DNA from: Comamonadaceae bacterium
GTDB lineage: Bacteria; Pseudomonadota; Gammaproteobacteria; Burkholderiales; Burkholderiaceae_C
Direction: 5' to 3'
Assembly (NCBI GenBank): GCA_947454955.1
Contig: CANGLW010000022.1
Span: 1 to 35,299, forward strand
DNA length: 35,299 nucleotides
Shown piece after piece: positions 1,176 through 16,615 of this stretch (positions within the stretch are counted from its first letter, which is position 1; each line of letters begins with the position of its first letter). A program made the position numbers and the translations under genes. Under the pieces are notes generated by a model that saw nothing but the letters and a program-made list of their open reading frames with translations, searched no databases and had not been told where the DNA came from.

Positions 1176-2156
1176 ATGAAAACTCCCGAATTCCTACAAA
1201 TCCATCACGACGACCATGCGGCCATCCGCGACGAATTGATTCAGGGCTTGAGCGCACCGAAGGCGCATACCTCCCCGAAGTTCCTGTACGACGCGCTGGG
1301 TTCACGCTTGTTTGAGGCCATCACCGAACTGCCCGAGTACTACCCCACCCGCACCGAAGCTGCGATTTTCAAAACGCATGGCGCCGCCATGGCCGCCTGT
1401 GTGCCGCCTCATGCCACCTTGATCGACCTGGGTGCGGGCAATTGCAACAAGGCTGCGGCGTTGTTCGATCGCTTTGCCCCCAAGCGCTATGTGGCGGTGG
1501 ATATTTCGGTCGACTTTTTACGCGGTGCGCTCGAGTGCCTGCAACGCCAATACCCCGAGCTCGACATGATGGGCATCGGGCTGGATTTCTCCAGTAGCCT
1601 GCGACTGCCTGCACAGGCAGGTAGCCCCCAAGACCCGCGCATCTTGTTCTACCCAGGCTCGAGCATTGGCAACTTCACGCCTGAACAGGCTCTGAGCTTC
1701 CTGCAAGACGCGCATCAAGCTTGTGGCAGCGCATCTCACAGTGGTTTGCTCATTGGGGTTGACCTGGTCAAAGACCATGCCGAACTCCAAGCCGCCTACG
1801 ACGACGCGCTGGGCGTGACTGCGGCGTTCAACCGCAACCTCCTGCCCCACATCAACCGCGTGGTGGGCAGCGATTTGCGTCTGGCCGATTGGCGGCACCT
1901 GGCGCTGTTCAACCCCAAAGACTCGCGCATTGAAATGCACTTGCTGGCCAACCGCGACCTGACCGTCACCTGGCCGGGTGGCAGCCGAGACTTTGCCAAA
2001 GACGAACGCATCCACACCGAGAACTCTTACAAATGGACGGTGGCAAGTTTTTCAGAACTTCTGCAGCAAGCAGGTTTCGCCAAGCCTCAGGTGTGGACCG
2101 ATGCGCATGACCCCGCCCATGGCCGCTTTGCGGTGATGTGGGCAAGCGCCCGTTAA
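1176..2156 (+). CDS. egtD: L-histidine N-alpha-methyltransferase EgtD (hercynine synthase)
   Basis: EgtD transfers three methyl groups from S-adenosylmethionine to histidine, giving hercynine, the betaine scaffold of ergothioneine and selenoneine. The 326-residue product matches the family's usual 320-330. Visible hallmarks are the FLYDALGS stretch followed by ITELPEYYPTRTE near the N-terminus, the SAM-binding DLGAG (residues 84-88), the FYPGSSIGNF stretch in mid-protein and a C-terminal SY/F-rich part ending in a short strand. I chose the ATG at 1176 because homology starts just after it, a GGACG ribosome site precedes it and a promoter sits directly upstream; the frame is open back to 1083. 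It leads an operon with senB, whose start lies three bases after its stop. No egtB/senA-type sulfoxide or selenoneine synthase gene is adjacent. Confidence 0.93.
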   Translation: MKTPEFLQIHHDDHAAIRDELIQGLSAPKAHTSPKFLYDALGSRLFEAITELPEYYPTRTEAAIFKTHGAAMAACVPPHATLIDLGAGNCNKAAALFDRFAPKRYVAVDISVDFLRGALECLQRQYPELDMMGIGLDFSSSLRLPAQAGSPQDPRILFYPGSSIGNFTPEQALSFLQDAHQACGSASHSGLLIGVDLVKDHAELQAAYDDALGVTAAFNRNLLPHINRVVGSDLRLADWRHLALFNPKDSRIEMHLLANRDLTVTWPGGSRDFAKDERIHTENSYKWTVASFSELLQQAGFAKPQVWTDAHDPAHGRFAVMWASAR

Positions 2157-2159
2157 GCC

Positions 2160-3146
2160 ATGCCCCAACGCGTGGTCATCGTCAGCCCTGCATTGTCAGA
2201 TGCCAACAACGGCAACTGGCAGACGGCTCGGCGCTGGCAAGGTTTCTTGCAATCGCAATACGCGGTGAGGATTGTCAAAGCCTGGCCAGATGAGCAAGCC
2301 CAAGATGATGCGGTGATGCTTGCACTGCACGCCAAACGATCCGCACCCGCCATTCAAGCCTGGGCGCAGCGTCATGGCGCCCCCGCAGAAGGATCGCCAG
2401 GCCTGGGCGTGGTGCTCACCGGCACCGACCTGTACCGCGACATCCAAGAAGATGCCAGTGCCCAGCAGTCTTTGCGACTGGCGCGACAGCTCGTGGTGTT
2501 GCAGCCGCTGGGTGTGGATGCACTGCCCGCAGATTTGAAGGCCCGCACGCGGGTGATCATCCAGTCCACACGCTCACGCCAAGCGCAGACCAAAACCCAG
2601 CGGCATCTGCGCGCGCTCATGGTGGGCCATTTGCGCGCAGAAAAAGACCCGCAAACCTTGATGGCGTGTGCTGGGCTGCTTCAAAAAGAAGAGCACATCC
2701 TGATTGACCATGTTGGCGCGGCCTTGGATGACACCCTGGGTCAGCAAGCCCGCCACACCATGCAAACCCATCCGCATTACCGCTGGCTGGGCGCGCTACC
2801 GCACGAAGCAACGCGCAAACGCATCGCTGCCGCCCACGTGCTGGTGCATGCCAGCCGCATGGAAGGCGGCGCGCATGTGGTGATGGAAGCGGTGTGCAGC
2901 GGCACGCCGGTGATCGCTTCGCGCATCGACGGCAATGTGGGCATGCTCGGCGCAGACTACGATGGTTACTTTGAGGCGGGTGACGCACAGGGTCTGGCAC
3001 AGTGTTTGAAAAGGGCCGCACATGAGCGCGGTTTTCTCCAACACCTGGCCCGGCAATGTGCCTTGCGTGCGCCCTTGTTTGCGCCACAGGCTGAACGATC
3101 CGCGTTGTTGGACCTGGTGAGCCATTTGATACATAAGAGAACATGA
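2160..3146 (+). CDS. senB: Selenosugar synthase SenB (TIGR04348-type glycosyltransferase)
   Basis: The product (328 residues) is a GT-B fold, GT4-like enzyme of the type placed next to SelD homologues in selenoneine clusters. SenB makes a selenosugar from selenophosphate and a UDP-sugar, the first Se-C bond of the pathway. The start matches the family's usual VVIVSPALS...NGNWQTA N-terminus. The nucleotide-sugar site shows the GT4 E-x7-E pattern with Glu235 and Glu243 (EGGAHVVME), followed by the SGTPVIASRIDGNVG stretch. It begins three bases after egtD and its stop overlaps the start of senC (ATGA, 3143-3146), so expression is coupled. The assignment as SenB rests on domain recognition plus operon context. 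A general glycosyltransferase role is the alternative but unlikely here. Confidence 0.9.
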   Translation: MPQRVVIVSPALSDANNGNWQTARRWQGFLQSQYAVRIVKAWPDEQAQDDAVMLALHAKRSAPAIQAWAQRHGAPAEGSPGLGVVLTGTDLYRDIQEDASAQQSLRLARQLVVLQPLGVDALPADLKARTRVIIQSTRSRQAQTKTQRHLRALMVGHLRAEKDPQTLMACAGLLQKEEHILIDHVGAALDDTLGQQARHTMQTHPHYRWLGALPHEATRKRIAAAHVLVHASRMEGGAHVVMEAVCSGTPVIASRIDGNVGMLGADYDGYFEAGDAQGLAQCLKRAAHERGFLQHLARQCALRAPLFAPQAERSALLDLVSHLIHKRT

Positions 3147-5425
3147 AATCAACTTCGCAACCGGTGGTGCGCGACATCATCCTGATTGGCGGGGGACACA
3201 GCCATGTGGGCGTGCTCAAACGCTTTGGCATGAAGCCCGAACCAGGTGTGCGCCTGACCGTCATCTGCACCGATGTGCACACCCCCTACTCGGGCATGTT
3301 GCCTGGGTATGTCGCGGGTCACTACAGCTACGACGATGTGCACATCGACCTGGGGCGCTTGTGCATGTTTGCCGGGGCCCGCTTGTTTCGCGACGAGGTG
3401 ATCGGCATCGACCGCGCACAACGCAAAGTCATCTGTCGCAACCGCCCGCCGGTGGCTTACGACCTGCTGTCCATCAACATCGGTTCAACCCCGCAACTCA
3501 AGGTCAGCGGCTCGGAGTTGGCCGTGCCGGTCAAACCCATCCATGGCTTCAATGTGCGTTGGCAAGCTCTGTTGTCACGCGTGCAAAACCACACCCGTGG
3601 TCCGCTGCGCATTGCCGTGGTGGGTGGTGGGGCCGGCGGCGTGGAGTTGCTGCTGGCCATGCAACACCGTTTGCGCGCAGAACTCAAAGCCCTGGGGCGC
3701 GACGTCAACATGCTGCAGTTTGCTCTGGTGCATGCCGGCGCACATATTTTGCCCACCCACAACCCGCGGGTACGCCAAACATTTGAGCGCGTGCTGCGCG
3801 AGCGTGATGTGAACGTTCACCTCAACGCCGAGGTCACCCGCGTGGACCGTGGGCTCTTGATTTGCAAAGACGGTCAACAGTTTGATGCCGATGAGGTGAT
3901 CTGGGTGACCCAGGCCGGCGGTGCACCTTGGTTGAAAAACACGGGCCTGAGCCTGGACCGTGAAGGCTTCATCCTGGTCAACAACAAGCTGCAAACGCCC
4001 GACGACGCCTTGATTTTTGCAGCCGGTGACATCGCCACCATGCGCGATCACCCCCTAGAAAAAGCCGGGGTGTTTGCGGTGCGCATGGGCCCTGTGTTGG
4101 CGGACAACTTAAGAGCAGCGTTGCGCGATGAACCTTTGCAAACGTACGAGCCGCAAAAACATTGGCTGGCGCTGATCAGCACCGGCAACCGTTATGCGGT
4201 GGCTTCGCGCGGCAACTGGGGTTGGGCGGGCGCCTGGGTTTGGCGTTGGAAAGATTGGATCGATCGGCGCTTCATGCGCAAGTTCTCTGAATTCCCGCCC
4301 ATGAGCCCGCAGCCGGCGAACACCACCGCGAACACAGCCCTGAAAATGAGCTCGGAAGAATCCTTGCAGGCCATCTCTGCCATGGCCATGCGCTGCGGCG
4401 GTTGCGGCGCCAAGGTGGGCGCCACTGTGCTGTCGCGTGCCTTGGGGCAATTGAATGTGGTGCATCGCGACGATGTGCTCATCGGCCTCAAAGACCCCGA
4501 CGATGCAGCGGTGGTGCGCATACCCCCGGGCAAAGCCTTGGTGCACTCGGTCGATTTTTTCCGCGCCTTTGTGGACGACCCTTACCTGTTTGGCCGCATT
4601 GCGGCCAACCATGCGCTGGGCGATATTTTTGCCATGGGCGCGCAAGCGCAAACAGCCACCGCCATTGCCACCGTGCCACCGGGGCTGGAACACAAGGTCG
4701 AAGAGTTGTTGTTCCAAATGATGACCGGCGCGGTGGAAGTGCTCAACGACGCCGGTTGCGCCTTGGTCGGCGGCCACACCGGCGAAGGTGCTGAGCTGGC
4801 TTTGGGCTTTGCGGTGAACGGCCTGATTGACGAGAACACACCAGGCCTGATGCGCAAAGGTGGCATGCAGGTGGGTGATGTTCTGATCCTCACCAAACCC
4901 ATCGGCACCGGCACCTTGTTTGCCGCGCACGCCAAACTGGCCACCAAAGGACGCTGGATCGATGCGGCCTTGGCCAGCATGGCCATGAGCAACCGCCAGG
5001 GCTCGGACATCCTGCGTGAATTTGGTGCCACCGCCTGCACAGACCTCACCGGCTTTGGCCTCTTAGGTCACCTGGTTGAAATGACCAAACCTTCGGGCGT
5101 GGACGCCGAGCTGAATTTAGCGGCTTTGCCTTTGCTCGAAGGCGCTACAGAAACCATAGCAGCAGGTATTGTGAGTTCGCTGCAACCAGCCAATGTGCGC
5201 TTGCGCCGTGCGCTGCGCAACCAGGAAGACTTCATCCACCACCCGCGTTACCCCTTGCTGTTTGACCCGCAAACCGCAGGTGGCTTGCTGGCCACCGTGC
5301 CGGCCGATCAGGTGCAGGCTTGTGTGGCCAAACTGCGTGCGGCAGGTTACATCCAAACCGCGATCATCGGTCGCATTCTTCCCATGGGTGAGGCCCTCGA
5401 GCCGGTGGTGTTGATCGACGCTTAA
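3143..5425 (+). CDS. senC: SenC: NADH-dehydrogenase-like flavoprotein fused to selenophosphate synthetase (SelD)
   Basis: A 760-residue two-domain protein. Residues 1 to about 385 form a pyridine-nucleotide/FAD oxidoreductase: GGGHSH near residue 16, a second dinucleotide motif GGGAGG at 161-166, and an AAGDIA stretch before the C-terminal FAD contact. Residues about 411-760 are a complete SelD: catalytic Cys421 and Lys424 in CGGCGAK, then ALGDIFAMG, GGHTGEGAE, TDLTGFGLLGH and DPQTAGG. SelD makes selenophosphate from selenide and ATP. The flavoprotein half may deliver selenide by reducing an upstream selenium species, which is inference. The residue at the active position is Cys, not selenocysteine. 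The fusion is known in proteobacteria. In this operon it should supply selenophosphate to SenB; it could also feed tRNA or selenoprotein pathways. It carries one copy of the 17-bp GCTAC repeat at 5144-5160. Confidence 0.93.
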   Translation: MKSTSQPVVRDIILIGGGHSHVGVLKRFGMKPEPGVRLTVICTDVHTPYSGMLPGYVAGHYSYDDVHIDLGRLCMFAGARLFRDEVIGIDRAQRKVICRNRPPVAYDLLSINIGSTPQLKVSGSELAVPVKPIHGFNVRWQALLSRVQNHTRGPLRIAVVGGGAGGVELLLAMQHRLRAELKALGRDVNMLQFALVHAGAHILPTHNPRVRQTFERVLRERDVNVHLNAEVTRVDRGLLICKDGQQFDADEVIWVTQAGGAPWLKNTGLSLDREGFILVNNKLQTPDDALIFAAGDIATMRDHPLEKAGVFAVRMGPVLADNLRAALRDEPLQTYEPQKHWLALISTGNRYAVASRGNWGWAGAWVWRWKDWIDRRFMRKFSEFPPMSPQPANTTANTALKMSSEESLQAISAMAMRCGGCGAKVGATVLSRALGQLNVVHRDDVLIGLKDPDDAAVVRIPPGKALVHSVDFFRAFVDDPYLFGRIAANHALGDIFAMGAQAQTATAIATVPPGLEHKVEELLFQMMTGAVEVLNDAGCALVGGHTGEGAELALGFAVNGLIDENTPGLMRKGGMQVGDVLILTKPIGTGTLFAAHAKLATKGRWIDAALASMAMSNRQGSDILREFGATACTDLTGFGLLGHLVEMTKPSGVDAELNLAALPLLEGATETIAAGIVSSLQPANVRLRRALRNQEDFIHHPRYPLLFDPQTAGGLLATVPADQVQACVAKLRAAGYIQTAIIGRILPMGEALEPVVLIDA
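5144..5160. repeat. 17-bp GCTAY-N7-RNAGC repeat, copy 5 (inside senC)
   Basis: GCTACAGAAACCATAGC, read as Ala-Thr-Glu-Thr-Ile-Ala in the C-terminal SelD domain of senC. Confidence 0.55.
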
Positions 5426-5435
5426 CGCTTGCCAC

Positions 5436-6065
5436 ATGACCGATTGGCTCAGCTTCAGCCCGGCCTTGTCTGATCTGCAAACCTGGCAGCTGCAGTTCGA
5501 TGCTTTGTACGCCAGCCACCCGGTTCTGCTCAGCCTGGCTTACCTGGCGGTCTTCACCGTCATCACCGCGCTGTGCTTGCCCGGGGCGGCTGTTTTGATG
5601 CTGCTCAGTGGCGCAAGCCTGGGCTTGTGGGCAGGCACTTTGCTGGCCACCCTCGCTTCAGCGTTAGGCGCCACACTGACCATGCTGGCTGTGCGTTGGG
5701 GTTGGCGTGCGCGCACCGAACAGCGGTGGCACACGCAACTCCAAGAGGTCAATGCGGGCCTGGCGCAGCATGGATGGCTTTATGTGCTGTGGCTGAGGTT
5801 GGTGCCCCTCATTCCTTTTGTGCCTTTGAACATTTTGTGTGGTTTGACCCGCCTGTCTGCCACGCGTTTTGCTGTGGCCAGTTTTGCTGGCATGCTGCCG
5901 GGCACAGCGGTGTATGTGCATGCAGGTGTTCAATTGGCGCAATTGCAAACCCTGGAAGACCTGTGGTCGCCACACATGTTGGGGGCGTTGATGCTACTGG
6001 TCTTGCTGACCAGCTTGCCCTTGCTCAAACCGCTAGGCCAACGCCTGCTCAGGCTCAAAACCTAG
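5436..6065 (+). CDS. TVP38/TMEM64 (VTT-domain) membrane protein
   Basis: A 209-residue integral membrane protein with about five hydrophobic segments. The VTT/DedA-like hallmarks are visible: a PGAAVLMLLSGASLG stretch near residue 50, a following small-residue helix, and RLVPLIPFVPLNILCGLT near residue 120 followed by FAGMLPGTAVYV. Family members have been linked to lipid scrambling and to metal or selenite handling, but no single substrate is established. It starts ten bases after senC and is the last gene of the egtD-senB-senC operon. Its final 33 bases overlap the 3' end of the convergent phosphoesterase gene. From context it may serve selenium compound movement or membrane protection; that is inference. 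Confidence 0.85.
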   Translation: MTDWLSFSPALSDLQTWQLQFDALYASHPVLLSLAYLAVFTVITALCLPGAAVLMLLSGASLGLWAGTLLATLASALGATLTMLAVRWGWRARTEQRWHTQLQEVNAGLAQHGWLYVLWLRLVPLIPFVPLNILCGLTRLSATRFAVASFAGMLPGTAVYVHAGVQLAQLQTLEDLWSPHMLGALMLLVLLTSLPLLKPLGQRLLRLKT

Positions 6066-6947
6066 TTGACCCTGAATGCGCGTGAAGTACGACACATGCG
6101 CATCAGACCCAGACGGCCACTGCGTCAAAAAGTCTTGTTCCCAACGCGCGGCATCGTAGACCAACGGCAATGCCTGGAGATGCACACCGGCTTTCACCAC
6201 ACCATACAGCGCCTGTGGTGAAGGCACCGAGCTGATGCGGGTGATGAGCCCTTGCCGGCGACCAGAAAAATTGGGCATGCCTGCAGCCCCGTTGTTGATG
6301 ACAACGCCATGTGTGTGTTGCTTGAGCACAGGCACGCATGTGTGGCTCGATGCAAACACATCCACCTGCGCTTCTTCGAACATCCGTGCAAGCCACGCAT
6401 CGTTGTGCAGCTCCGTGAGCGCGCTGTGATCAAAGCCCCAGCCGGCCAGCGACTCTGCATCGCCATGAACAACGGCCACGCGCAAGCCCGAGACCTCGTA
6501 GCGCGCATGCATGGGCAAAGCCGACAAACACTCACGCAAGTCTGGGTGTTGATGCAAGGCGGCTTTGAGCCGCGCATGGATGCGGTTGGAACGCGCCACC
6601 ACCTCAGCACCGACTGACTCAGGGTAGGCACAGCCGCAGCCCGCATCATCCAAAGCGGTGCACAACTCGGCTTCTACATTGCCGGCAATCGCATCGTGTT
6701 GCAGCACGCGGGTATTGACCTCGCGCAGCATGGCAGCGTCCACATTGAACCAGTTGAAGTCGCCGTTGAAACACATCGTCACGGGCCCTGGTTCTTGCGC
6801 CAACAGCTGGTCGAGCGCATCGAGTGCTGGCACATTGCCGTACAAGCCCCCCACCACATACAAGGTATGGGCCTGACGCAATGGCGCTTTGGCCAGCGCT
6901 TGCGGGCCGTAGCGGTAAGACAAAGGGCAGCTGCGTCCGAGTGTCAT
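6033..6947 (-). CDS. Calcineurin-like metallophosphoesterase, degenerate active site
   Basis: The 304-residue product has the outline of a YfcE/ApaH-type metallophosphoesterase: a YGNVPALDAL helix near residue 36, a NGDFNWF stretch, AGNVEAEL, VVHGDAES and a late SSHTCVPVL. The usual first motif (Asp-x-His-Gly-Asn) reads Gly34-Leu-Tyr36-Gly-Asn, so the Asp and His metal ligands are missing, and the Gly-His-x-His motif is also altered (SSHTC). It may use a different metal arrangement or be a non-catalytic member. Its start overlaps the stop of the ABC ATPase (ATGA at 6944-6947), making it the last gene of the long arsS operon. Its end overlaps the TVP38 gene tail to tail. I assign fold with fair confidence and no substrate. 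Confidence 0.75.
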   Translation of the reverse strand: MTLGRSCPLSYRYGPQALAKAPLRQAHTLYVVGGLYGNVPALDALDQLLAQEPGPVTMCFNGDFNWFNVDAAMLREVNTRVLQHDAIAGNVEAELCTALDDAGCGCAYPESVGAEVVARSNRIHARLKAALHQHPDLRECLSALPMHARYEVSGLRVAVVHGDAESLAGWGFDHSALTELHNDAWLARMFEEAQVDVFASSHTCVPVLKQHTHGVVINNGAAGMPNFSGRRQGLITRISSVPSPQALYGVVKAGVHLQALPLVYDAARWEQDFLTQWPSGSDAHVSYFTRIQGQLGFEPEQALA

Positions 6948-7687
6948 GGGGTTTGGTAGAGCTGGTTCAACACCGTGTCGTTGACCTGTGCAGTTGGCAG
7001 GTCAAACATCACGCGTCCTTGGCGCAACCCTATCACACGGTCGGCCAGCAGTGGCAAGAGGGCGGTGTTGTGAACCACGGTGATGAGTGTGGCTTGTTGT
7101 GCCGCTTGAAACAACTGCGCGCATGACTGCGCCGCAGCCACCGGGTCGAGTGCGGCAGTGGGCTCATCGGCCAGCACCAGCTCAGGGCCTTGCATGAGCA
7201 AACGCGCCAGAGCCACTTTCTGTCGCTCACCACCTGAGAGTTGGTCACACCGCACATCCGCCAGGTCAGCAGCCCCCACACGTTCCAGTGCCAAACGCGC
7301 CAAGGCTTGTTCTGGCGCGGCATACAGGCGCAGCCAACTGCGCCAGCCCCTGATGCGACCCAAAGCGCCGATCAACACATTGTCCAGCGCACGCAAGCGC
7401 CCCACCAAATGCAGCCCTTGCCACAGATGCCCGACCTTCGAGCGCAAGGCACGCAAATCTTGCTGGCGCATGCCAGGGCTCACATGCGCACCCAACACCT
7501 GCACCCGTCCCTGCGAAATAGGAACCAGGCCACTCAACACTTTCAACAGCGTTGATTTGCCAGCGCCGTTGTGCCCCACCACAGCCACACGCTCACCAGC
7601 GTGTACATGCAGATGGTCAATCTGCAAAATGATTCGGCCCTGCACCTCACAACGCACATCATGCAGGCTCACCACCGCCGCGCTCAT
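6944..7687 (-). CDS. PhnC-like ABC transporter ATPase (putative selenium-oxyanion importer)
   Basis: A 247-residue ABC ATPase. Walker A is GHNGAGKST (residues 38-46), the signature LSGGERQ at 150-156, and Walker B LVLADEP at 170-176 followed by TAALD. Sequence style and partner genes place it with phosphonate-type (PhnC) ATPases. I use the ATG at 7687 because it overlaps the stop of the permease gene (ATGA, 7684-7687) and homology begins directly after; the frame extends upstream to 7777 without family similarity. Together with the permease and binding protein it would energise uptake of an oxyanion. The neighbouring selD-type and arsS genes suggest a selenium or arsenic oxyanion rather than phosphonate; the substrate is inference. 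Confidence 0.88.
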   Translation of the reverse strand: MSAAVVSLHDVRCEVQGRIILQIDHLHVHAGERVAVVGHNGAGKSTLLKVLSGLVPISQGRVQVLGAHVSPGMRQQDLRALRSKVGHLWQGLHLVGRLRALDNVLIGALGRIRGWRSWLRLYAAPEQALARLALERVGAADLADVRCDQLSGGERQKVALARLLMQGPELVLADEPTAALDPVAAAQSCAQLFQAAQQATLITVVHNTALLPLLADRVIGLRQGRVMFDLPTAQVNDTVLNQLYQTP

Positions 7688-8565
7688 AGCAAGGCCTGCC
7701 GAATGCGCCGGCTCATGGCATCGAAAGCAGCGACCATGAGCACGATGACGATGAGCACCGTGGCCAAGCGTCCCCATTGAAAGAGTGAGGTGGCTTCGGT
7801 GATCAACAGCCCCAAGCCCCCAGCGCCAATCAGCCCCAGGATGGTGGAGTCACGGATGTTGAACTCCCACACATACAAATGGCTGGACACCAACTGCGGC
7901 AACACCGCAGGCCACACCGCATTGAAAAACACCTGGGCAGGTGTGGCACCCACGCTGCGCACCGCATCCACCGCGGCCATGTCCAGCGACTCCATGCTTT
8001 CAGCAAACAACTTGCCATAGGTGCCCATGCTGTGCAGCGCAATCGCCAAAATGCCAGCGGTGGGCCCCAAACCCACAATGCCCACCAACACCAGGCCAAA
8101 CACCAGGGTGTGAATGGCACGCGCGGTGTTGAGCACCCCATTGGCCATGGCAGCCAACAACTGAGGCGCATGCAGGTTACGTGCGGTGAGCACCGCCAAA
8201 GGTAAGGCCAGCAAGGCGCCCAACAAGGAACCCAGCGTGGCAATTTTCAAGGTGACCCAGGCAGCGCGCGCCAGGCCGGCCAAGTACTCGCGTTCCAACT
8301 GCGGGCGGTTCTCCACACGCAAGACCCGACCCTCGTCGTTTTTGTATTCCAGCGCCGGGTTGCCCCACCACAGGTCCAGAAAGCTGGGGTGCGCAAAGTC
8401 CTGCGCGGTCTTGATGAGGTTCTGAAGAGGCTGACGGCCCAGGCTCACATCACCATCAAGCCACAGCGAACTCAGGCAGGCCACCACCAGCGCGGCATAC
8501 ACAAGCACCAAGCTGAAAAAGCCCAAGCGCCCACGCAAACTCAGTGGTCCCGACAAGCTCGCCAT
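7684..8565 (-). CDS. PhnE-like ABC transporter permease
   Basis: A 293-residue inner-membrane permease with an N-terminal membrane segment, a periplasmic loop of about 75 residues and four to five further membrane helices. The cytoplasmic EAA-type loop is visible (ESMESLDMAAVDAVRSVGA near residue 200), followed by a proline-rich turn and the DSTILGLIGAGGLG stretch typical of PhnE. It sits between the binding protein (19 bases upstream) and the ATPase (overlapping start), the usual order of a three-part importer. No phosphonate degradation genes (C-P lyase, phosphonatase) occur in the window, which weakens a phosphonate role. Confidence 0.88.
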   Translation of the reverse strand: MASLSGPLSLRGRLGFFSLVLVYAALVVACLSSLWLDGDVSLGRQPLQNLIKTAQDFAHPSFLDLWWGNPALEYKNDEGRVLRVENRPQLEREYLAGLARAAWVTLKIATLGSLLGALLALPLAVLTARNLHAPQLLAAMANGVLNTARAIHTLVFGLVLVGIVGLGPTAGILAIALHSMGTYGKLFAESMESLDMAAVDAVRSVGATPAQVFFNAVWPAVLPQLVSSHLYVWEFNIRDSTILGLIGAGGLGLLITEATSLFQWGRLATVLIVIVLMVAAFDAMSRRIRQALL

Positions 8566-8584
8566 GTCAACGCAACGTCACGCT

Positions 8585-9460
8585 TTACTTGGCCTGCAGC
8601 TTGCCTGTGGCAAGGCCTGCATCGCGAATGGGTTTGTAGTACGTGTTGTCTTTGCTGACAAAACCGGTGTAGTGCGTGGGCAGCAAGTTGGGCTGCTGCT
8701 TCAAGGCTGGCCCCACAGCCGCTAAGGCGGCTTGCAATTGACCCACCAACGCTTTGTCAGCAAAGACAGACTTGCTCACGGCGAACGCGTCATTGGGCAG
8801 GGGCGCAGATTGCCAAATCACCACCGATTGATCAGCCTTGATGAGGCCCTCTTCAATCATGGCGTTGCGGTTGCGGTTGTAGTCTGCACCGGCATCGAGC
8901 AAACCTTGCGTGACTTGCGTCTCAATGGCCTGGTGTTTGGTGTAAAGCACTTTGGAAAAATAACGCTCTGGGTTGATGCCTTGCGTCATGAAATAGTGCA
9001 AAGGAATCAGGTAGCCGGATGTGGAGCCTTTGTCGCCAAAGGCGAACGTTTTACCCTTGAGGTCCGCCACGGTTTTGATGCCCGACTTGGGGTGCGTGAC
9101 CATGATGGCGTGGTACTCGGGCTTGCCATCGTAAAGAATCGTGGCCACCGCTTGGGCACCGGCCTCGTGGTTGGCCAGCACATAACCCCAAGGCCCCATC
9201 AGGGCCAAATCGGTTTCGCCGTTGGCCAGAGATTTGGCCAAGCCCTCCCAACTGTCAACCGTGCGCAATTGCACCTCCCGACCCAACTTGCTGGCCAGGT
9301 AAGCCGCCAGGGGTTGGTAGGTCGCATCGTTCTTTTCTTTGTCGGGTTGAAACAAGCCCACGCCCAAACGCAAAGGTTCTTTCGCAGCAGCTTGCCAAGG
9401 CAGGCACAAGCTCAACAAGGACAAAAGACTTAGCAATAAAAATCGGGTACAGCTCAGCAT
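8585..9460 (-). CDS. PhnD-like periplasmic binding protein, putative selenate/selenite receptor
   Basis: Type-2 periplasmic binding protein of the phosphate/phosphite/phosphonate group (about 291 residues). A hydrophobic leucine-rich signal peptide ends near an Ala-Ala-Ala site, then the family's LRLGVGLFQPD start, ETDLALMGPWGYVLA in the first lobe and KGKTFAFGDKGSTSGYLIP around the ligand cleft. I prefer the ATG at 9460; a GTG start at 9493 is possible and would overlap the upstream gene by 28 bases. From memory, a subfamily of PhnD-like receptors found beside selenium genes is named putative selenate ABC transporter receptor, and this copy sits in that context. Ligand identity is therefore inference; phosphite or phosphonate remains possible. 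Confidence 0.85.
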   Translation of the reverse strand: MLSCTRFLLLSLLSLLSLCLPWQAAAKEPLRLGVGLFQPDKEKNDATYQPLAAYLASKLGREVQLRTVDSWEGLAKSLANGETDLALMGPWGYVLANHEAGAQAVATILYDGKPEYHAIMVTHPKSGIKTVADLKGKTFAFGDKGSTSGYLIPLHYFMTQGINPERYFSKVLYTKHQAIETQVTQGLLDAGADYNRNRNAMIEEGLIKADQSVVIWQSAPLPNDAFAVSKSVFADKALVGQLQAALAAVGPALKQQPNLLPTHYTGFVSKDNTYYKPIRDAGLATGKLQAK

Positions 9461-9465
9461 GGCAT

Positions 9466-10221
9466 TCAAGGTAACAGAGAGGGAAAGTCGCACGGCGAAT
9501 CGGTTGACACAAAATGCAGATCAGCAAATCCAGAGCGCACAGATTCACCGGTGTTGTCGGTGTCAGCCGCCACGGCCAGCAAGGTCAATCGCACATCTTG
9601 CAGGTTGATGGGGCCGAACACACGTTGTGCGTCGTCCCACACATTCACACGCTCGCTGACCCACTGTCCCAGTTGCGCTGCGCCGCTGCGTTGGACTTTC
9701 ATGTGCGCTCGGTCGGTGTAGACATTGGGATGCAAAGTGCCCACCGGGTTGTCTTTGTCCCACACATAGTTGATGGCGCCATCGGGCACCAAGTCGCTGT
9801 AAATCGTACGCGCGATTTTGAGCTTGGCGCGTGTGGCCAAACTCATGCTGGCCGAAGGCAAATCAAACGCCACGTAGACCCTGGCCGGGTAATCATCACC
9901 CGACTTCTTGAACATGTCGGCCTGCTGAACCAGGCGCTCTACCCGCCAACGCCAGCACAACACCGGGGTTTGCGACAAATCCACCTTCACCTCGCGCGCC
10001 AGCAAGGCCATGCTGGCCTCTGCGCGCGCTTCCACCGCATTCACGCCCTCCCACACCACAGCCTGATAAGCCGTGGGTTTGAGCTTGTTGATGGGCACCA
10101 CCCGCCAAGGCTTGGGCAGTTGACCCGCAGGCGCCTGAAAACGACCGGCCCACACCACTTGCGCTGAGGCATGCGACATCAGGCTGGCCAGCAGCATCGC
10201 CATCAGCGTCTTAAGCCACAT
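9466..10221 (-). CDS. DUF3047 periplasmic protein
   Basis: A 251-residue exported protein with a signal peptide of about 20 residues ending in an Ala-x-Ala site. The DUF3047 signature is clear: a CWRWRVE strand near residue 110, followed by KKSGDDYPARVYVAFD, then a NYVWDKDNPVGTLHPN segment and the closing GESVRSGFADLHF. Function of the family is not known; its fold appears to be a beta-rich ligand-binding or carbohydrate-binding type. Its start overlaps the end of the TIGR04282-like gene by 11 bases and it lies five bases upstream of the binding-protein gene, so it is firmly part of the arsS operon. A role in binding or exporting the pathway product is a guess. Confidence 0.85.
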   Translation of the reverse strand: MWLKTLMAMLLASLMSHASAQVVWAGRFQAPAGQLPKPWRVVPINKLKPTAYQAVVWEGVNAVEARAEASMALLAREVKVDLSQTPVLCWRWRVERLVQQADMFKKSGDDYPARVYVAFDLPSASMSLATRAKLKIARTIYSDLVPDGAINYVWDKDNPVGTLHPNVYTDRAHMKVQRSGAAQLGQWVSERVNVWDDAQRVFGPINLQDVRLTLLAVAADTDNTGESVRSGFADLHFVSTDSPCDFPSLLP

Positions 10222-10852
10222 GCTGAGCCCCAGTTTTTAGCGCTGTGATCAGCGCTTGGTCAGGCCAATGCAACAGATCCGCAGGCTCATCGATGTCATG
10301 CAAGGTCGGCCCCACCCACACCGAGGTGTGGGACAAGCGTTGAAGGGTCAAGGCGCACACCTTGGGCGTGCTCCAGGGCATGTCGTCAAACACAGCTTGC
10401 CAAGCTCTCAAACCCAGCAAACCATAGCCGCCATCGGCTGTGGGCAAGAGGCACGCCTCATGCGTGAGCAAGGTTTTCGCTGCGCTTTGCAACAGCTCGC
10501 TGGTCAGCTGTGGCAGGTCAGTGCCAATGAGTAAGACTTGCTCTTTTTTTGATAGCGCGCTTTGCACAGCACGCGACATGCGTTGACCCAAATCGCCATC
10601 ACCTTGGGCCGACCAGTTCAAGTCGGACGGCAAACCCAGTGACGACCAGGCAGGGGCTTGCGGATCGGGCGATGCGCAAATGGTCACGCCATGAATGTGG
10701 TCACCCCGCGCGGCTAAGGCTGCAGCCACCGTGCGCGCCAACATGCGCTGCGCCAATTGGGCAGCGCCTGGCGCACCCAAGGCCGGGATGAGCCTGGTTT
10801 TCACCTGACCGGCCAAAGGCGCTTTGGCCATGATCACCAATTGCGTGGTCAT
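10211..10852 (-). CDS. TIGR04282/DUF2064-type glycosyl- or nucleotidyltransferase
   Basis: A 213-residue protein whose N-terminus (MAKAPLAGQVKTRL) is the hallmark of the DUF2064 family, related to nucleotide-diphospho-sugar transferases and named for arsenosugar biosynthesis in its TIGR04282 branch. Further matches are LIGTDLPQLT in mid-protein, ADGGYGLLGLR and PWSTPKV. I start it at the ATG at 10852, one base after the stop of the preceding gene; an upstream GTG at 10891 would add 13 residues without family similarity. The partners on either side and the ArsS homologue suggest that it activates or transfers the sugar part of an As- or Se-containing compound. The biochemical reaction is unproven. 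It contains one 17-bp GCTA repeat (10540-10556). Confidence 0.85.
   Translation of the reverse strand: MTTQLVIMAKAPLAGQVKTRLIPALGAPGAAQLAQRMLARTVAAALAARGDHIHGVTICASPDPQAPAWSSLGLPSDLNWSAQGDGDLGQRMSRAVQSALSKKEQVLLIGTDLPQLTSELLQSAAKTLLTHEACLLPTADGGYGLLGLRAWQAVFDDMPWSTPKVCALTLQRLSHTSVWVGPTLHDIDEPADLLHWPDQALITALKTGAQHVA
10540..10556. repeat. 17-bp GCTAY-N7-RNAGC repeat, copy 1 (inside the TIGR04282-like gene)
   Basis: On the minus strand the sequence is GCTATCAAAAAAAGAGC, an imperfect inverted repeat with an A-rich centre. It matches the other five copies in length and end sequence, but sits in a different reading frame from the other coding copies. Confidence 0.5.
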
Positions 10853-10853
10853 G

Positions 10854-11519
10854 TCAGCGGTATGCGCGTGCCAAAGACTCAGCGGGTGCACCCAGCCAAT
10901 AAGCCAGACGCAAACGCCACATCAAAAAAATGGTGCGCCACACGCCACGCTGTTCCCAGCGCCGACCCGAGGTGATGACCTGGTAGCGCAAACATGCCGG
11001 TGCGCTGATGGCTTTGAGGGCTGCAGACATCTCGATGTCTTCCATCAAAGGCTGATCAGGAAAACCACCCGCTTGCAGATAGGCCTGACGCGTCATGAAC
11101 ATTGCTTGGTCGCCCGTGGCAATGCCTGTCAGGCGTGAACGCCAGTTCATCAACGCAGCCACCACACGCAGCATCTTGGCTTGGCCTTGAATCTGCACAT
11201 CAAAGCGGCCCCAGGCGCGGTGTTGCAAGGCCTCTTGAACACGGGCCAAAGCGGCTTCAGGCAGTTGGGTGTCAGCATGCAAAAAAAGCAGATGCGGCGC
11301 TTGCGTGGCCAGGGCGCCTGCGTTCATCTGACGCGCGCGACCGCGCGATGCATGCACCACGTTCAGGCCAGCGGAGCGTGCCAGGTGCACGGTGTCATCG
11401 GTGCTGCCACCATCGACCAAGATCACCTCGGCATTCACAGCGATTTGTTGCAGATGCGCATGCAGCGCCGGTAGGTTGGCCGCCTCGTTGAGCACAGGTA
11501 CGACGATGGCCAGTTGCAT
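10854..11519 (-). CDS. TIGR04283-type GT2 glycosyltransferase
   Basis: A 221-residue GT-A fold family 2 glycosyltransferase. Visible are the start IVVPVLNEAANLP, the nucleotide-binding DGGSTDDT (Asp36 onward), SRGRARQMNAGA and the HADT metal-site motif at 81-84. These are the features of the TIGR04283 branch, named for its association with ArsS in arsenosugar biosynthesis. It starts two bases after the arsS stop and is followed after one base by the TIGR04282-like gene, giving the triad seen in such loci. The acceptor is unknown; in this setting it may be a 5-deoxyribose-like arsenic or selenium compound (inference). Confidence 0.9.
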   Translation of the reverse strand: MQLAIVVPVLNEAANLPALHAHLQQIAVNAEVILVDGGSTDDTVHLARSAGLNVVHASRGRARQMNAGALATQAPHLLFLHADTQLPEAALARVQEALQHRAWGRFDVQIQGQAKMLRVVAALMNWRSRLTGIATGDQAMFMTRQAYLQAGGFPDQPLMEDIEMSAALKAISAPACLRYQVITSGRRWEQRGVWRTIFLMWRLRLAYWLGAPAESLARAYR

Positions 11520-11521
11520 GG

Positions 11522-12505
11522 CTAAGCGTTGAGCGCACCACCACAGCTGCTACCCGCACCAGCGGTGCAACCGTAGCAGTGGTCTGCCACGCGGATGGCT
11601 GCACCCAGCGGGTTTTTGAACAGCAAGTCGCGCAAGTGGGGGCGATGCACTGGGCTGATGTCCAACACCTGCATGGGGGGCATGGGCAGTTCAAGCTGCT
11701 GGTTGAAATCACAATCGAACAAGTGGCCTTGCCAGTCCACGCTGATGAGGCTGCGGCACATCACATGCGCCAGGTTGGCATCGGCATGGTTTTGCTGCAG
11801 CAAGGTCATGTAGTTGTTGAACTGACCTTTGGAAATCAACATCGAGCCAAAGCGCTGGATGGGCATGTTGGCCAAGGCATACAGGTCATTGAAGACGATG
11901 CCAAAGTTGGCGCCCAATTCACGTTGGTAGTCCGCCTTGAGTTGCGCTTGCGCAGGCGGCAACACCGCGCCTTGCGGGTTGTAAACCAGGTTGAGTGTGA
12001 GGCCCGTGCCCGGCTTGCCGTAACCCAAAGCGTTGAGACGCTGCAAGCCGGCGATGCTTTTGTCAAACACCCCCGCGCCACGCTGCTTGTCCACATTGTC
12101 CAGCGAGTAGCAAGGCAGGGAAGCCACCACCTGCACCCCTTGTTCAGCCAAAAAGTCAGCCAGGTCTTCATGGCCGGGCTCGAACAAAATGGTGAGGTTG
12201 CAGCGGTCAATGACCTGCACACCCAAAGCGCGCGCTTCACGCACCAGACGCTTGAATGAGGGGTGCAGCTCGGGCGCACCGCCGGTGAGGTCCAGGGTTT
12301 CAATGTCGCGCGCTTTGATGACCTCAAGCACCAGGTCGATGGTGGCCTCGTCCATCATCTCGGTGCGGTTGGGGCCGGCGTTCACGTGGCAGTGCACGCA
12401 CGATTGGTTGCACTTGTAACCCAGGTTGAGCTGCAGGGTGGTCAAACGCTCGCGGCGGATGGCGGGAAAGCCTTGAATTTCAAGTAAGGGAAGGGTGGCA
12501 TGCAT
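11522..12505 (-). CDS. arsS: ArsS-type radical SAM enzyme (arsenosugar biosynthesis family, DUF3641 C-terminus)
   Basis: A 327-residue radical SAM protein. The cluster motif is CNQSCVHC with Cys32, Cys36 and Cys39, followed by LDLTGGAPELHP, the SAM-contact region. The C-terminal third matches the cysteine-rich ArsS domain, with Cys310, Cys313 and Cys321 in CYGCTAGAGSSCGG as candidate ligands of a second iron-sulfur cluster. In characterised systems ArsS transfers the 5'-deoxyadenosyl group of SAM to dimethylarsenite. No arsM methyltransferase is in the window, so the acceptor here could be a selenium species; that is inference. Some family members carry selenocysteine, but this gene has no in-frame TGA before its TAG stop. 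It is the first gene of an eight-gene operon, divergent from mtnP. Confidence 0.9.
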   Translation of the reverse strand: MHATLPLLEIQGFPAIRRERLTTLQLNLGYKCNQSCVHCHVNAGPNRTEMMDEATIDLVLEVIKARDIETLDLTGGAPELHPSFKRLVREARALGVQVIDRCNLTILFEPGHEDLADFLAEQGVQVVASLPCYSLDNVDKQRGAGVFDKSIAGLQRLNALGYGKPGTGLTLNLVYNPQGAVLPPAQAQLKADYQRELGANFGIVFNDLYALANMPIQRFGSMLISKGQFNNYMTLLQQNHADANLAHVMCRSLISVDWQGHLFDCDFNQQLELPMPPMQVLDISPVHRPHLRDLLFKNPLGAAIRVADHCYGCTAGAGSSCGGALNA

Positions 12506-12566
12506 AGGGCATTTGTAGCAATTCGGTGCCCGTCCAAAGACTGGAAAAGCAGCATGAAAGTCTAGC

Positions 12567-12596
12567 CTAATACCTTGAACCTTTCATTACACTCAA
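12567..12596 (-). promoter_or_regulatory. Candidate promoter of the arsS operon
   Basis: On the minus strand TTGAGT (complement of 12591-12596) and TATTAG (complement of 12567-12572) are 18 bases apart, each matching the consensus at four positions. It overlaps the proposed mtnP promoter, so the two directions may compete or share a regulator. Weak, read by eye. Confidence 0.3.
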
Positions 12597-12604
12597 ACTA
12601 TCTA
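12575..12604 (+). promoter_or_regulatory. Candidate sigma70 promoter of mtnP
   Basis: TTGAAC at 12575-12580 and TATCTA at 12599-12604, 18 bases apart, fit a sigma70 promoter moderately well. Transcription would begin just ahead of the hairpin at 12614-12629. Confidence 0.4.
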
Positions 12605-12613
12605 ACCCAGCAT

Positions 12614-12629
12614 GGGGCCAGGTGGCCCC
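12614..12629 (+). promoter_or_regulatory. Perfect inverted repeat in the mtnP leader
   Basis: GGGGCCA, GG, TGGCCCC forms a seven-base perfect inverted repeat (a six-base stem with a four-base loop when folded as RNA). It ends about six bases before the AAGGA ribosome site of mtnP. It could be an operator or an RNA hairpin that modulates translation. I do not recognise a riboswitch class. Confidence 0.45.
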
Positions 12630-12645
12630 GACACAAGGACAGCTC

Positions 12646-13506
12646 ATGACCCAAGCTCTGGTCGGCGTGATTGGCGGCAGCGGCCTCTACAACATGGACG
12701 CCTTGCAGAATGTGCAAGAGGTGCAGATGGACACGCCTTTTGGCGCCCCGTCTGACAGCTTCATGTGCGGCACGGTGCACGGCGTGAAGGTGGCGTTTTT
12801 GGCGCGGCATGCACGTGGCCACCGCCTCATCCCATCTGAGGTGCCATACCGCGCCAATGTGCATGCCTTCAAACAGCTGGGGGTGAAGTACCTCATCTCC
12901 ATGTCGGCGGTGGGGTCGCTCAAAGAAGAGCTGGCCCCGCTGGACATGGTGCTACCCGACCAGTTTGTGGACCTGACCAAACACCGTGCCTCCACCTTTT
13001 TCGGCAATGGTGCGGTGGCGCATGTGTCGATGGCACAACCGGTGTGCTCGGCTTTGTCTGATGTGTTGGCTCGCGCGGTTGCTAGCCTGCAAACGCCACC
13101 CAAACTGCACCGTGGTGGCAGCTATGTGTGCATGGAAGGGCCGCAGTTTTCCAGCCTGGCTGAATCGCAGTGGTACCGCAGCATGAACGCCAGCGTGATT
13201 GGCATGACCAACATGCCCGAGGCCAAGTTGGCGCGCGAAGCACAAATGGCCTATGCCACCCTGGCCATGGTGACCGACTACGACTGCTGGCACCCGCGCG
13301 AAGCGCATGTCACCGCCGATGCGGCCATTCAAAACCTGATGAAAAACGCCAGCAACGCGCAGCACATCGCCGCGCGCGCCATCGAGTTACTGGGGCAAGA
13401 GCAACCTGTGTCTGAGGCCCACAGCGCTTTGCAGCACGCGCTCATCACCTCACCTGAGGCGATGGCCCCCGAGGTGCGTGCGCGGCTGGACGTGCTGTGG
13501 CGTTGA
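12646..13506 (+). CDS. mtnP: S-methyl-5'-thioadenosine phosphorylase MtnP
   Basis: A 286-residue purine nucleoside phosphorylase-family enzyme that splits 5'-methylthioadenosine into adenine and 5-methylthioribose-1-phosphate in methionine salvage. Visible are GGSGLY at 10-15, ARHARGHR near residue 50 (phosphate contact), MSAVGSL, a SYVCMEGPQFSS stretch, GMTNMPEAKLAREA and the TDYDCWH motif characteristic of 6-aminopurine-accepting MTA phosphorylases. The ATG at 12646 has an AAGGA ribosome site; the frame is open to 12622. It is divergent from arsS. Some MTA phosphorylases also cleave 5'-deoxyadenosine, the by-product of radical SAM enzymes, or related 5'-substituted adenosines, so co-regulation with arsS would make sense (inference). 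Confidence 0.92.
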   Translation: MTQALVGVIGGSGLYNMDALQNVQEVQMDTPFGAPSDSFMCGTVHGVKVAFLARHARGHRLIPSEVPYRANVHAFKQLGVKYLISMSAVGSLKEELAPLDMVLPDQFVDLTKHRASTFFGNGAVAHVSMAQPVCSALSDVLARAVASLQTPPKLHRGGSYVCMEGPQFSSLAESQWYRSMNASVIGMTNMPEAKLAREAQMAYATLAMVTDYDCWHPREAHVTADAAIQNLMKNASNAQHIAARAIELLGQEQPVSEAHSALQHALITSPEAMAPEVRARLDVLWR

Positions 13507-13543
13507 GCCGCGAAAAACGCAGGCCTTAGGGCAAACGCAAGCT

Positions 13544-15217
13544 TCAGAACAGGCCCGAAATTTTGCCGTTGTCGTCCACGTCGATGCGCAGCGATGCGGG
13601 TTCTTTGGGCAGACCCGGCATGGTCATGATGTCGCCGCAGACCATCACCACAAACTCGGCACCGGCACTCAAACGCACCTCGCGCACATTCACCACGTGA
13701 CCGCTGGGGGCGGCGCGCAGCTTGGGGTCGGTCGAGAACGAGTACTGGGTTTTGGCCACGCACACCGGGTAGTGCCCAAAGCCATCAGCCTGCAGCTTGT
13801 CGATTTTTGCTTTCACCGACGCATCGGCCGAGATGTCTGCCGCGCCATAAATTTGCGTGGCGATTTTGCGCATCTTCTCCCACAGCGTGTCTTCGTCGGC
13901 GTAGGCAAATTTGAGTTGCGCTTGACCCGACTCAGCCAGCTTCACCACCTCGCGCGCCAGGTCTTCTGCACCCGCCGAGCCATCGGCCCAATGGCGGGCC
14001 ACCACCACCGGCACACCGCGCTCTTGCATGCGCTGCTTGAGCAAGGCCAATTCTTCGGCGGTGTCAGAGGTGAAGTGGTTGATCGACACCACGCAGGGCA
14101 AACCGAAGCTGCGCAGGTTGTCCACGTGGCGCTGTAAATTGGCCATGCCGCGGTCCAGCGCCGCCAGGTCTGGCGTGTTGAGGTCTTGAGCCGCCACACC
14201 GCCGTGGTGTTTGAGCGCGCGCAGCGTGGCCACCACCACCGCGGCATCGGGTTTGAGGCCCGACTTACGGCATTTGATGTCGATGAATTTTTCAGCGCCC
14301 AGGTCCGCACCAAAACCGGCCTCGGTCACCACGTACTCACCGAGCTTCAACGCGGCTTGCGTGGCGGTGATGGTGTTGCAACCGTGGGCGATGTTGGCAA
14401 ACGGCCCGCCGTGGATGATGGCCGGGTTGTTCTCGAGTGTTTGCACCAAGTTGGGTTTGATCGCGTCTTTCAAGAGTGCCGCCATGGCGCCCTGGGCCTG
14501 CAGGTCTTTGGCGCGGATGGGCGTTTGCTCGCGGGTGTAGCCCACGATGATTTTGCCCAAGCGCTCTTTCAAATCTTTGCGCGAGGTGGCCAGGCAGAAA
14601 ATCGCCATGACTTCAGAAGCCACCACGATGTCAAAACCATCCTGACGCGGAAAGCCGTTGCCCGGGCCACCCAAAGACACCACGATGTCACGCAGCGCAC
14701 GGTCGTTCATGTCCACCACCCGCTTCCAGGTGATGCGTCGCACATCAAAGCCCAGCGTGTTGCCGTGGTGGATGTGGTTATCAATCAAGGCCGAGAGCAG
14801 GTTGTGCGCCAGCGCAATCGCGCTGAAGTCGCCGGTGAAGTGCAGGTTGATGTCCTCCATCGGCACCACCTGCGCATAGCCACCACCGGCTGCGCCACCC
14901 TTCATACCAAACACCGGGCCGAGCGACGGTTCGCGCAGCGCAATCACCGTGCGTTTGCCGATGCGGTTGAGCGCATCGCCCAAGCCCACGGTGGTGGTGG
15001 TTTTACCTTCACCCGCAGGCGTGGGGCTGATGGCGGTGACCAAAATCAGCTTGCCTTGGGGGCCCGGGTGCTGATCGAGCCAGCTCAGGTCAATCTTGGC
15101 TTTGTAGTGGCCGTAAGGCTCGAGCGCGTGCGCGGGAATGCCCAGGCGTTCCTGGCCGAGTTGAAGAATGGGTTGAAGTTTCGCGGCTTGTGCGATCTCG
15201 ATGTCTGAACCTGGCAT
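13544..15217 (-). CDS. fhs: Formate-tetrahydrofolate ligase
   Basis: A full-length 557-residue enzyme that joins formate to tetrahydrofolate with ATP, giving 10-formyl-THF for one-carbon metabolism. The ATP-binding [10 protein letters not shown] (66-75), [20 protein letters not shown], the NLHFTGD stretch, and NHFTSDT in the C-terminal half are characteristic. A GGGAGA ribosome site precedes the ATG. It converges on mtnP with a 37-base gap lacking a clear terminator, and follows the FIST gene on the same strand at 125 bases, so it probably has its own promoter. Nothing unusual is seen in it. Confidence 0.97.
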
Positions 15218-15274
15218 GGAGTCTCCCTCGGTGTAGGTGTTGGTTTTGGTTTTGATGTGGATCTAGAGCGCAAG

Positions 15275-15304
15275 ATCGTAACCCGAACCGCCAAGCCTGA
15301 CCAA
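15275..15304 (-). promoter_or_regulatory. Weak candidate promoter for fhs
   Basis: On the minus strand TTGGTC (complement of 15299-15304) and TACGAT (complement of 15275-15280) lie 18 bases apart, about 60 bases before the fhs ATG. Match to consensus is modest. The rest of the 125-base gap shows no other clear element. Confidence 0.3.
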
Positions 15305-15342
15305 GCCCACCAACCTTAGCCAACCGCTCGGGGTGAAGACCC

Positions 15343-16608: not shown

Positions 16609-16615
16609 GGGCAAT

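Follow-up and report, generated by a model that had tools for sequence, protein, structure and literature searches.

When genes for a selenium pathway lie tail to tail with an operon named after arsenosugars, do the two gene sets make one product or two? The question is raised by a stretch of 35,299 nucleotides (the window, meaning the whole stretch of DNA that was analysed) from a Comamonadaceae bacterium (G000; GenBank GCA_947454955.1, contig CANGLW010000022.1), whose assembly is 94.8% complete. Here the selenium genes egtD, senB and senC converge on a cluster around arsS, which encodes a radical S-adenosylmethionine (SAM) enzyme, and a first-pass annotation had proposed that both halves jointly build a seleno-compound. 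We find that the locus probably consists of two functionally separate metalloid modules placed tail to tail, a selenoneine set and a variant ArsS arsenosugar pathway that has no arsM. Directly observed here are the gene content, the exclusion between arsM and the phosphoesterase-fold gene pep within ArsS loci, the pocket class of the importer, the nesting of the window's ArsS among arsM-linked relatives, and the co-occurrence of sen genes with arsS.

arsM and pep in ArsS clusters

We compared two sets of ArsS loci. The first held the best 80 of 118 loci from GTDB species. The second added 109 loci: 399 genomes of the window's order were scanned, and 106 of them, apart from the window's own genome, carried ArsS. 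With the window added and one locus without an extracted ArsS (L160) removed, this gave 189 loci and 188 distinct ArsS proteins, L059 and L166 carrying identical copies. Flanks of up to about 10 kb were fetched around each ArsS, and the neighbours were scored with profiles built from neighbour genes. A search of plasmids for ArsS, plus one unannotated plasmid stretch, added nothing.

The minus-strand operon of the window is a widespread ArsS cluster of many bacteria, mostly without sen genes nearby. The operon is thus no composite found in this window alone, and ArsS with these neighbours recurs among the 189 loci: the TIGR04283 glycosyltransferase in 118, the TIGR04282 transferase in 112, DUF547 in 60, DUF3047 in 51, a flavin adenine dinucleotide (FAD) protein resembling the SenC N-terminus (FAD3169) in 51, methylthioadenosine (MTA) phosphorylase in 27 and a PhnD-like protein in 12. 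A TVP38-MerA profile matched in 132 loci, some matches being partial, with a near-full fusion (>850 bits) in 111; the match in L037 is an ordinary mercuric reductase. In most cases, a relative of the window's TVP38 found in an ArsS locus forms the N-terminal portion of such a TVP38-MerA-like fusion.

What is new is the make-up of this module, in that pep and arsM never occur together within a locus. arsM was present in 38 and pep in 52 of the 189 loci, with both in none (Fisher p 1e-6, relatedness ignored). The same held for the 131 loci with both flanks of at least 6 kb, where 32 had arsM, 36 had pep and none shared them (p 7e-6, relatedness ignored). Both types occur in genome G126, whose two ArsS loci carry arsM in one case and pep in the other. 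In all 52 pep loci, pep lies downstream of arsS on the same strand, and of the 56 genomes among the 399 in which the pep profile was found, 55 carry arsS (in the scans for arsS, senB and pep, no more than five candidates per genome were scored).

At the genome level the two genes are not exclusive: arsM was found in 13 of 55 pep-bearing and 25 of 52 pep-less ArsS genomes. Of the order's 107 ArsS genomes, 38 have arsM and 69 gave no match at our cut-off. The first arsM scan scored at most five candidates per genome and missed some, and the 88 arsS-bearing genomes without a match were then rescored (G101 figures in both rounds, and 42 of 47 candidates were scored in G236). A genome was counted as having arsM on a first-scan match or at E<=1e-25, so that G028, G115 and G295 (E 1e-16 to 1e-18) count as lacking it. 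The ArsS genomes without arsM include the single-contig G021, G037, G068, G143 and G232. Among the GTDB species, 23 genomes drawn from the 59 arsM-less loci were tested and arsM was not found in 21; the genome of L035 has an ArsM-like match elsewhere than its ArsS locus.

The first-pass statement that the window has no arsM holds for the locus and extends to the genome. In G000, PRK11873 gave at best 48 bits (12 of 12 candidates scored), and our own ArsM profile gave nothing at E<=1e-15 (16 of 16 candidates scored). Nor was arsM found in the genome of the window's nearest relative, L003 (Hylemonella sp. UBA6679), whose ArsS is 86% identical; on this point the check set by the first-pass annotation went its way.

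Does ArsS itself differ where arsM is missing? In a tree of 118 ArsS rows made by a quick method, the window and L003 fall in a 20-row clade with support 95. The locus includes arsM in 14 of these rows, and among them only the window and L003 have pep in the fetched locus. Across the 189 proteins, 88 positions, nine cysteines among them, are conserved in more than 97%, and the window's ArsS keeps them. No position cleanly separates the 38 arsM-type from the 52 pep-type proteins, and on this ground we rejected a different active site in pep-type clusters. We therefore favour the same ArsS chemistry, predicted to act on arsenic, which is the likelier substrate because the closest relatives of the window's ArsS in the tree are mostly arsM-linked.

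The reference for this comparison is the ArsM-ArsS oxo-arsenosugar pathway, in which ArsS was characterised by Cheng et al. 2021, as cited in an excerpt of PMC12159101. Like that pathway, the window has ArsS and both transferase families over their NCBIfam cut-offs, with the conserved ArsS positions kept. Unlike it, the window has pep and an HtxB-like importer, and no arsM was found in its locus or genome. Searches of the open-access literature listed no paper that deals with arsM-less ArsS clusters or that pairs ArsS with Sen proteins.

Gene content of the window

The gene calls were checked by NCBIfam and Pfam scans, and are listed below with bits given as score/curated cut-off.

1176-2156, plus strand: egtD, histidine N-alpha-methyltransferase (hercynine); TIGR03438 359/290.9; open reading frame (ORF) open from 1083
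2160-3146, plus strand: senB, selenosugar synthase; TIGR04348 435/300
3143-5425, plus strand: senC, FAD oxidoreductase-selenophosphate synthetase fusion; TIGR03169 507/310, selD 297/125, CGGCGAK in the translation
5436-6065, plus strand: TVP38/VTT membrane protein, last gene of the sen operon; VTT domain (Pfam)
6033-6947, minus strand: pep, metallophosphoesterase-fold protein; Pfam Metallophos_2 26.9, just under the cut-off of 27
6944-7777, minus strand: importer ATPase, PhnC-like; TIGR02315 205, under the cut-off of 266
7684-8565, minus strand: importer permease, PhnE-like; TIGR01097 230/216.7
8585-9493, minus strand: importer binding protein, HtxB-like (phnD); TIGR03431 167, under 261; wider TIGR01098 171/112
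9466-10221, minus strand: DUF3047 protein; PF11249 215 bits
10211-10891, minus strand: TIGR04282 nucleotidylyltransferase-like transferase, 187/134; PF09837; MobA-like nucleoside triphosphate transferase PF12804 27.9/27
10854-11519, minus strand: TIGR04283 family-2 glycosyltransferase, 278/182
11522-12505, minus strand: arsS, radical SAM enzyme; TIGR04167 454/300, CX3CX2C kept
12622-13506, plus strand: MTA phosphorylase, divergent from arsS; TIGR01694 318/275

All genes called by the first-pass annotation were borne out by these scans; the list had overlooked the MTA phosphorylase at 12622-13506. Chance gene calls are ruled out, as most ORFs exceed curated cut-offs. The exceptions are phnC and phnD, which score under the phosphonate cut-offs, pep, which is just under its Pfam one, and TVP38 and DUF3047, which have Pfam matches only. 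The minus-strand genes are spaced by -94 to +19 bases (taking longest-ORF starts) and look like one tight operon. A reading by eye of the window's ORF lists found no arsB, arsC or arsR there, the genome not having been searched for them.

The 33-base tail-to-tail overlap of TVP38 and pep at their stops (6033-6065), to which the first-pass annotation had drawn attention, is real. L003 has the same genes in the same order, including the MTA phosphorylase at the equivalent place, and has a 32-base gap where the window has the overlap. Thus the overlap means little in itself, and a functional meaning for it is ruled out.

The selenium half is a selenoneine set. The selenoneine pathway, SenABC, was reportedly described by Kayrouz et al. 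in 2022. Of its genes, the window holds egtD, senB and senC, and senA lies on another contig of G000, C40 (499 bits, cut-off 420); EgtD, SenB, selenophosphate synthetase and SenA are all present, each over its own cut-off. Together they are the complete known selenoneine pathway, and production of selenoneine is predicted from these genes. Two features set the window apart from SenABC: the separate contig of senA, and the TVP38 gene that closes the sen operon. The closest solved chain to the window's SenB is RsSenB (8k5u), aligned over almost full length, and the alignment retains NWQT (N20/T23), the lysine of the K158 region and EGGAHV. These are positions singled out by mutagenesis according to an excerpt of PMC10891094.

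The pep protein combines a familiar fold with apparently altered motif residues. Its AlphaFold model (mean predicted local distance difference test, pLDDT, 85.8) has the fold of a calcineurin-like phosphoesterase, and the best solved Foldseek matches are 1nnw and then SapH 3qfn/3qfm (E 5e-11 and 7e-11; template modelling score by target ~0.7). By sequence, the pep profile matched no solved structure at E<=1. The usual phosphoesterase motifs are GDxHGN, GNHE and GHTH. In pep we take their counterparts, by eye, to be GGLYGN, GNVE and SHTC; at these apparent motif positions G33, G34, Y36 and C204 are invariant and V91 nearly so. Across 36 aligned pep proteins, four cysteines never vary: C7, C104, C106 and C204. 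Thus pep shares the fold of phosphoesterases of the 1nnw/SapH kind and differs from them in its four invariant cysteines and, as far as the eye can match them, in its three motifs. Judged from these residues, pep may be a phosphoesterase scaffold turned to thiol-based use.

The importer was also compared with its characterised relatives. The window's binding protein scores 167 bits on TIGR03431 (PhnD; cut-off 261) and 109 on TIGR04553 (putative selenate type; cut-off 250), and its best solved relative by sequence is HtxB 5me4 (179 bits). Ten pocket positions, taken from excerpts of PMC6629693 and PMC5700983, read WPYSTSHYRD in the window, and WPYSTSH[YF]RD is common to 11 full-length HtxB-type proteins of ArsS loci. 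As in HtxB hypophosphite importers, W52, P71, Y97, T129, S130, R178 and D206 are kept. S128, H158 and Y176 are those of the 'HtxB-like hybrids' named in an excerpt of PMC6629693, so that the whole hybrid pocket (W52, S128, T129, S130, H158, Y/F176, R178, D206) is retained. What separates the window's importer from HtxB and the hybrids is its place in an ArsS operon. Cut-offs and pocket together rule out a phosphonate or selenate importer.

Among the 11 loci with an HtxB-type importer, 10 have pep and none has arsM. The PhnD-like proteins of L225, L226 and L228 have the pocket YGFSTSHNSY and score 384-417 bits on TIGR04553, over its cut-off. Because the window's pocket matches the ArsS-locus proteins and differs from this type found near sen genes, the window's importer belongs with the ArsS module. 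As a separate observation, these putative selenate proteins lie within ~6 kb of senB in 3 of the 11 senB loci fetched.

ArsS, SenB and the case for a shared product

The first-pass annotation held that, in clusters without arsM, ArsS and the transferases act on selenium and, with SenB and SenC, make a 5'-seleno nucleoside or selenosugar. The co-occurrence that this idea predicts is present. Among the 399 genomes of the order, arsS occurred in 107, senB over its cut-off in 118 and both in 68 (odds ratio 8.4, p 4e-18), so that senB was found in 68 of 107 arsS-bearing and 50 of 292 arsS-less genomes; matches under the cut-off in G016 and G227 were excluded. By genus, senB occurred in 40 of 55 with arsS and 21 of 110 without (p 3e-11), and by family in 20 of 26 and 9 of 23 (p ~0.01, the total of 49 families being assumed from the highest label seen). 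These associations exceed a simple chance expectation, against which they were judged without an unrelated control gene. The association is strongest in pep-bearing genomes: senB was found in 47 of 55, as compared with 21 of 52 other ArsS genomes (p 1e-6), and in 39 of 42 genomes whose pep was counted in the fetched ArsS locus. The idea also draws on the 69 ArsS genomes without arsM, and on the lack of association between long arsM and senB (senB in 8 of 24 genomes with it and 110 of 375 without, arsM recall being limited in that scan).

Several results argue against a seleno-product nonetheless. Among pep-less ArsS genomes, the frequency of senB does not differ significantly with the presence of arsM (12 of 27 without arsM, 9 of 25 with it; p 0.58). 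An independent-pairs test on the ArsS tree was not significant: among six pairs on supported branches, on average 1.8 differed the same way, 0.5 the opposite way and 3.7 not at all. No senB was found in 8 of 55 pep-bearing and 31 of 52 pep-less ArsS genomes. A SenA-family match (E<=1e-60) was present in all 47 genomes with both pep and senB, 42 of them over the cut-off; pep-type ArsS thus accompanies a full selenoneine pathway, and SenB already has a likely user.

In the genomes, senB mostly lies well away from arsS. The proposed check of co-occurrence succeeded for genomes, genera and families and not for neighbourhood, as senB lies in the flanks of only five of the 189 ArsS loci: the window, L003, L035, L037 and L209. 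In L037 and L209, arsM stands directly behind arsS. L209 (G306, 7408-17125) runs on one strand through senB, selD, arsS, arsM, TVP38-MerA, DUF3047, TIGR04283, TIGR04282 and the FAD protein; the gaps, counted from profile-hit starts, do not exceed ~135 bases, and senA is divergent upstream. The sen genes here share a putative operon with the full arsenosugar set including arsM, so that sen adjacency does not replace arsM. Together with the complete selenoneine set, the SenA partner, the importer type, and the nesting and unchanged conserved positions of ArsS, this anatomy does not support the joint seleno-pathway. We consider the seleno-product idea unproven and improbable.

L209 was also weighed as a sign of joint arsenic-selenium chemistry, in which the ArsS product would carry or need selenium (for example a selenoarsenical sugar), or selenide or selenophosphate would aid arsenic handling. 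The co-occurrence, and oxidoreductase-SelD fusions beside arsS in L053, L068 and L079 (without senB in the flanks), would fit such chemistry. However, L209 is the one such run among 109 loci drawn from the order, and sen genes are missing from the flanks of most ArsS loci. Outside the window, 67 order genomes have both genes, and in one of them (G306) senB and arsS are no more than 20 kb apart, a lower bound given assembly breaks; 0.67 such genomes were expected. In G135 the distance is ~31 kb. We know of no biochemistry for a joint arsenic-selenium use of the ArsS pathway, and regard it as unlikely. A gene of ~440 amino acids (a weak ATP-grasp match in L035) recurs in the ArsS or senB loci L032, L035, L139, L209 and L229, 40-70% identical to the L035 copy.

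The chance-level linkage of senB and arsS outside the window also favours an ecological or lineage effect, by which both modules would be accessory traits of the same lineages that met by chance. Consistent with this, the ArsS tree shows 20 changes of pep and 17 of senB, as compared with ~33 and ~32 when shuffled, so that both follow lineage. On the other side, the association persists at the family level, and sen genes beside arsS come in four arrangements (window/L003, L035, L037 and L209). We hold this explanation doubtful, with some chance of being right.

A final alternative would couple pep-type ArsS clusters to SenABC, as an additional role of the ArsS scaffold: with pep replacing ArsM, they would make a selenium-bearing or mixed arsenic-selenium ribofuranoside. 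If true, this would explain why senB is so frequent in pep-bearing genomes despite rare adjacency; we give it a small chance.

SenB may be used outside selenoneine in genomes without a SenA match. Among senB-bearing genomes without arsS, 33 of 50 were tested, and a SenA-family match was found in 20 (14 over the cut-off). The 13 without a match at E<=1e-60 were G013, G027, G042, G049, G086, G092, G103, G168, G173, G225, G242, G252 and G362. Their senB loci (L231-L243) have recurring neighbours, two groups of which (in 7 and 6 of the 13) are flagellar MotB and MotA, judging by the members in L233.

A working model of two modules

We return to the reading of two functionally separate modules. In the first, EgtD would provide hercynine, SenC selenophosphate and SenB a selenosugar, and SenA, from the other contig, would join them. 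For the second, gene identities apart, the following steps are what we infer. The HtxB-like importer would take up a small tetrahedral oxyanion, and the most appealing candidate is an arsenical that arrives already methylated, for instance dimethylarsinate. This anion would be to arsenic what hypophosphite, the ligand of HtxB, is to phosphorus: each is tetrahedral and has two oxygens. Uptake of such a ligand would account for a cluster without arsM. Once inside, the arsenical would be reduced to As(III), and ArsS would add a 5'-deoxyadenosyl group to the As(III) species. MTA phosphorylase could then take off adenine to leave 5-arsenoribose-1-phosphate, which the TIGR04282 protein would activate as a nucleotide sugar and the TIGR04283 protein transfer to an acceptor. 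In the operon pep occupies the place of arsM, and its invariant cysteines would suit the handling of a thiophilic metalloid.

A number of points weigh against this model. An arsM may possibly lie in an assembly gap of G000, although the genome of L003 lacks arsM too. The MTA phosphorylase and transferase steps are drawn from family chemistry. According to an excerpt of PMC5700983, HtxB bound no methylphosphonate up to 10 mM, and in an excerpt of PMC6629693 the authors expect the hybrid pocket to bind phosphite. The HtxB-type importer occurs in only 11 of the 189 ArsS loci, and thus cannot supply substrate to most arsM-less clusters. The twelfth PhnD-like match (L020) is partial, sits next to an arsM-type cluster at ~10 kb from its arsS, and has a pocket of the YGFSTSHNSY type. 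Two unrelated modules also do not explain the genome-level association of ArsS with SenB, save through shared habitat or lineage.

It is to their ArsM-linked examples that ArsS clusters owe the arsenosugar name. If most ArsS genomes of the order lack ArsM, then they either rely on methylated arsenic from other organisms or use ArsS on a different substrate. The pep gene offers a concrete component to test: no locus here combines it with arsM, and nearly all genomes that have it also have arsS. Through the ArsS-SenB association, a metabolic link between arsenic and selenium likewise becomes directly testable.

Elsewhere in the window, a large ORF at 20415-22814 reads by eye as a TonB-dependent receptor. 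At 30665-35297, a ParA-like protein is followed by BcsA- and BcsB-like ORFs, which by eye read as a cellulose synthesis operon leaving the window.

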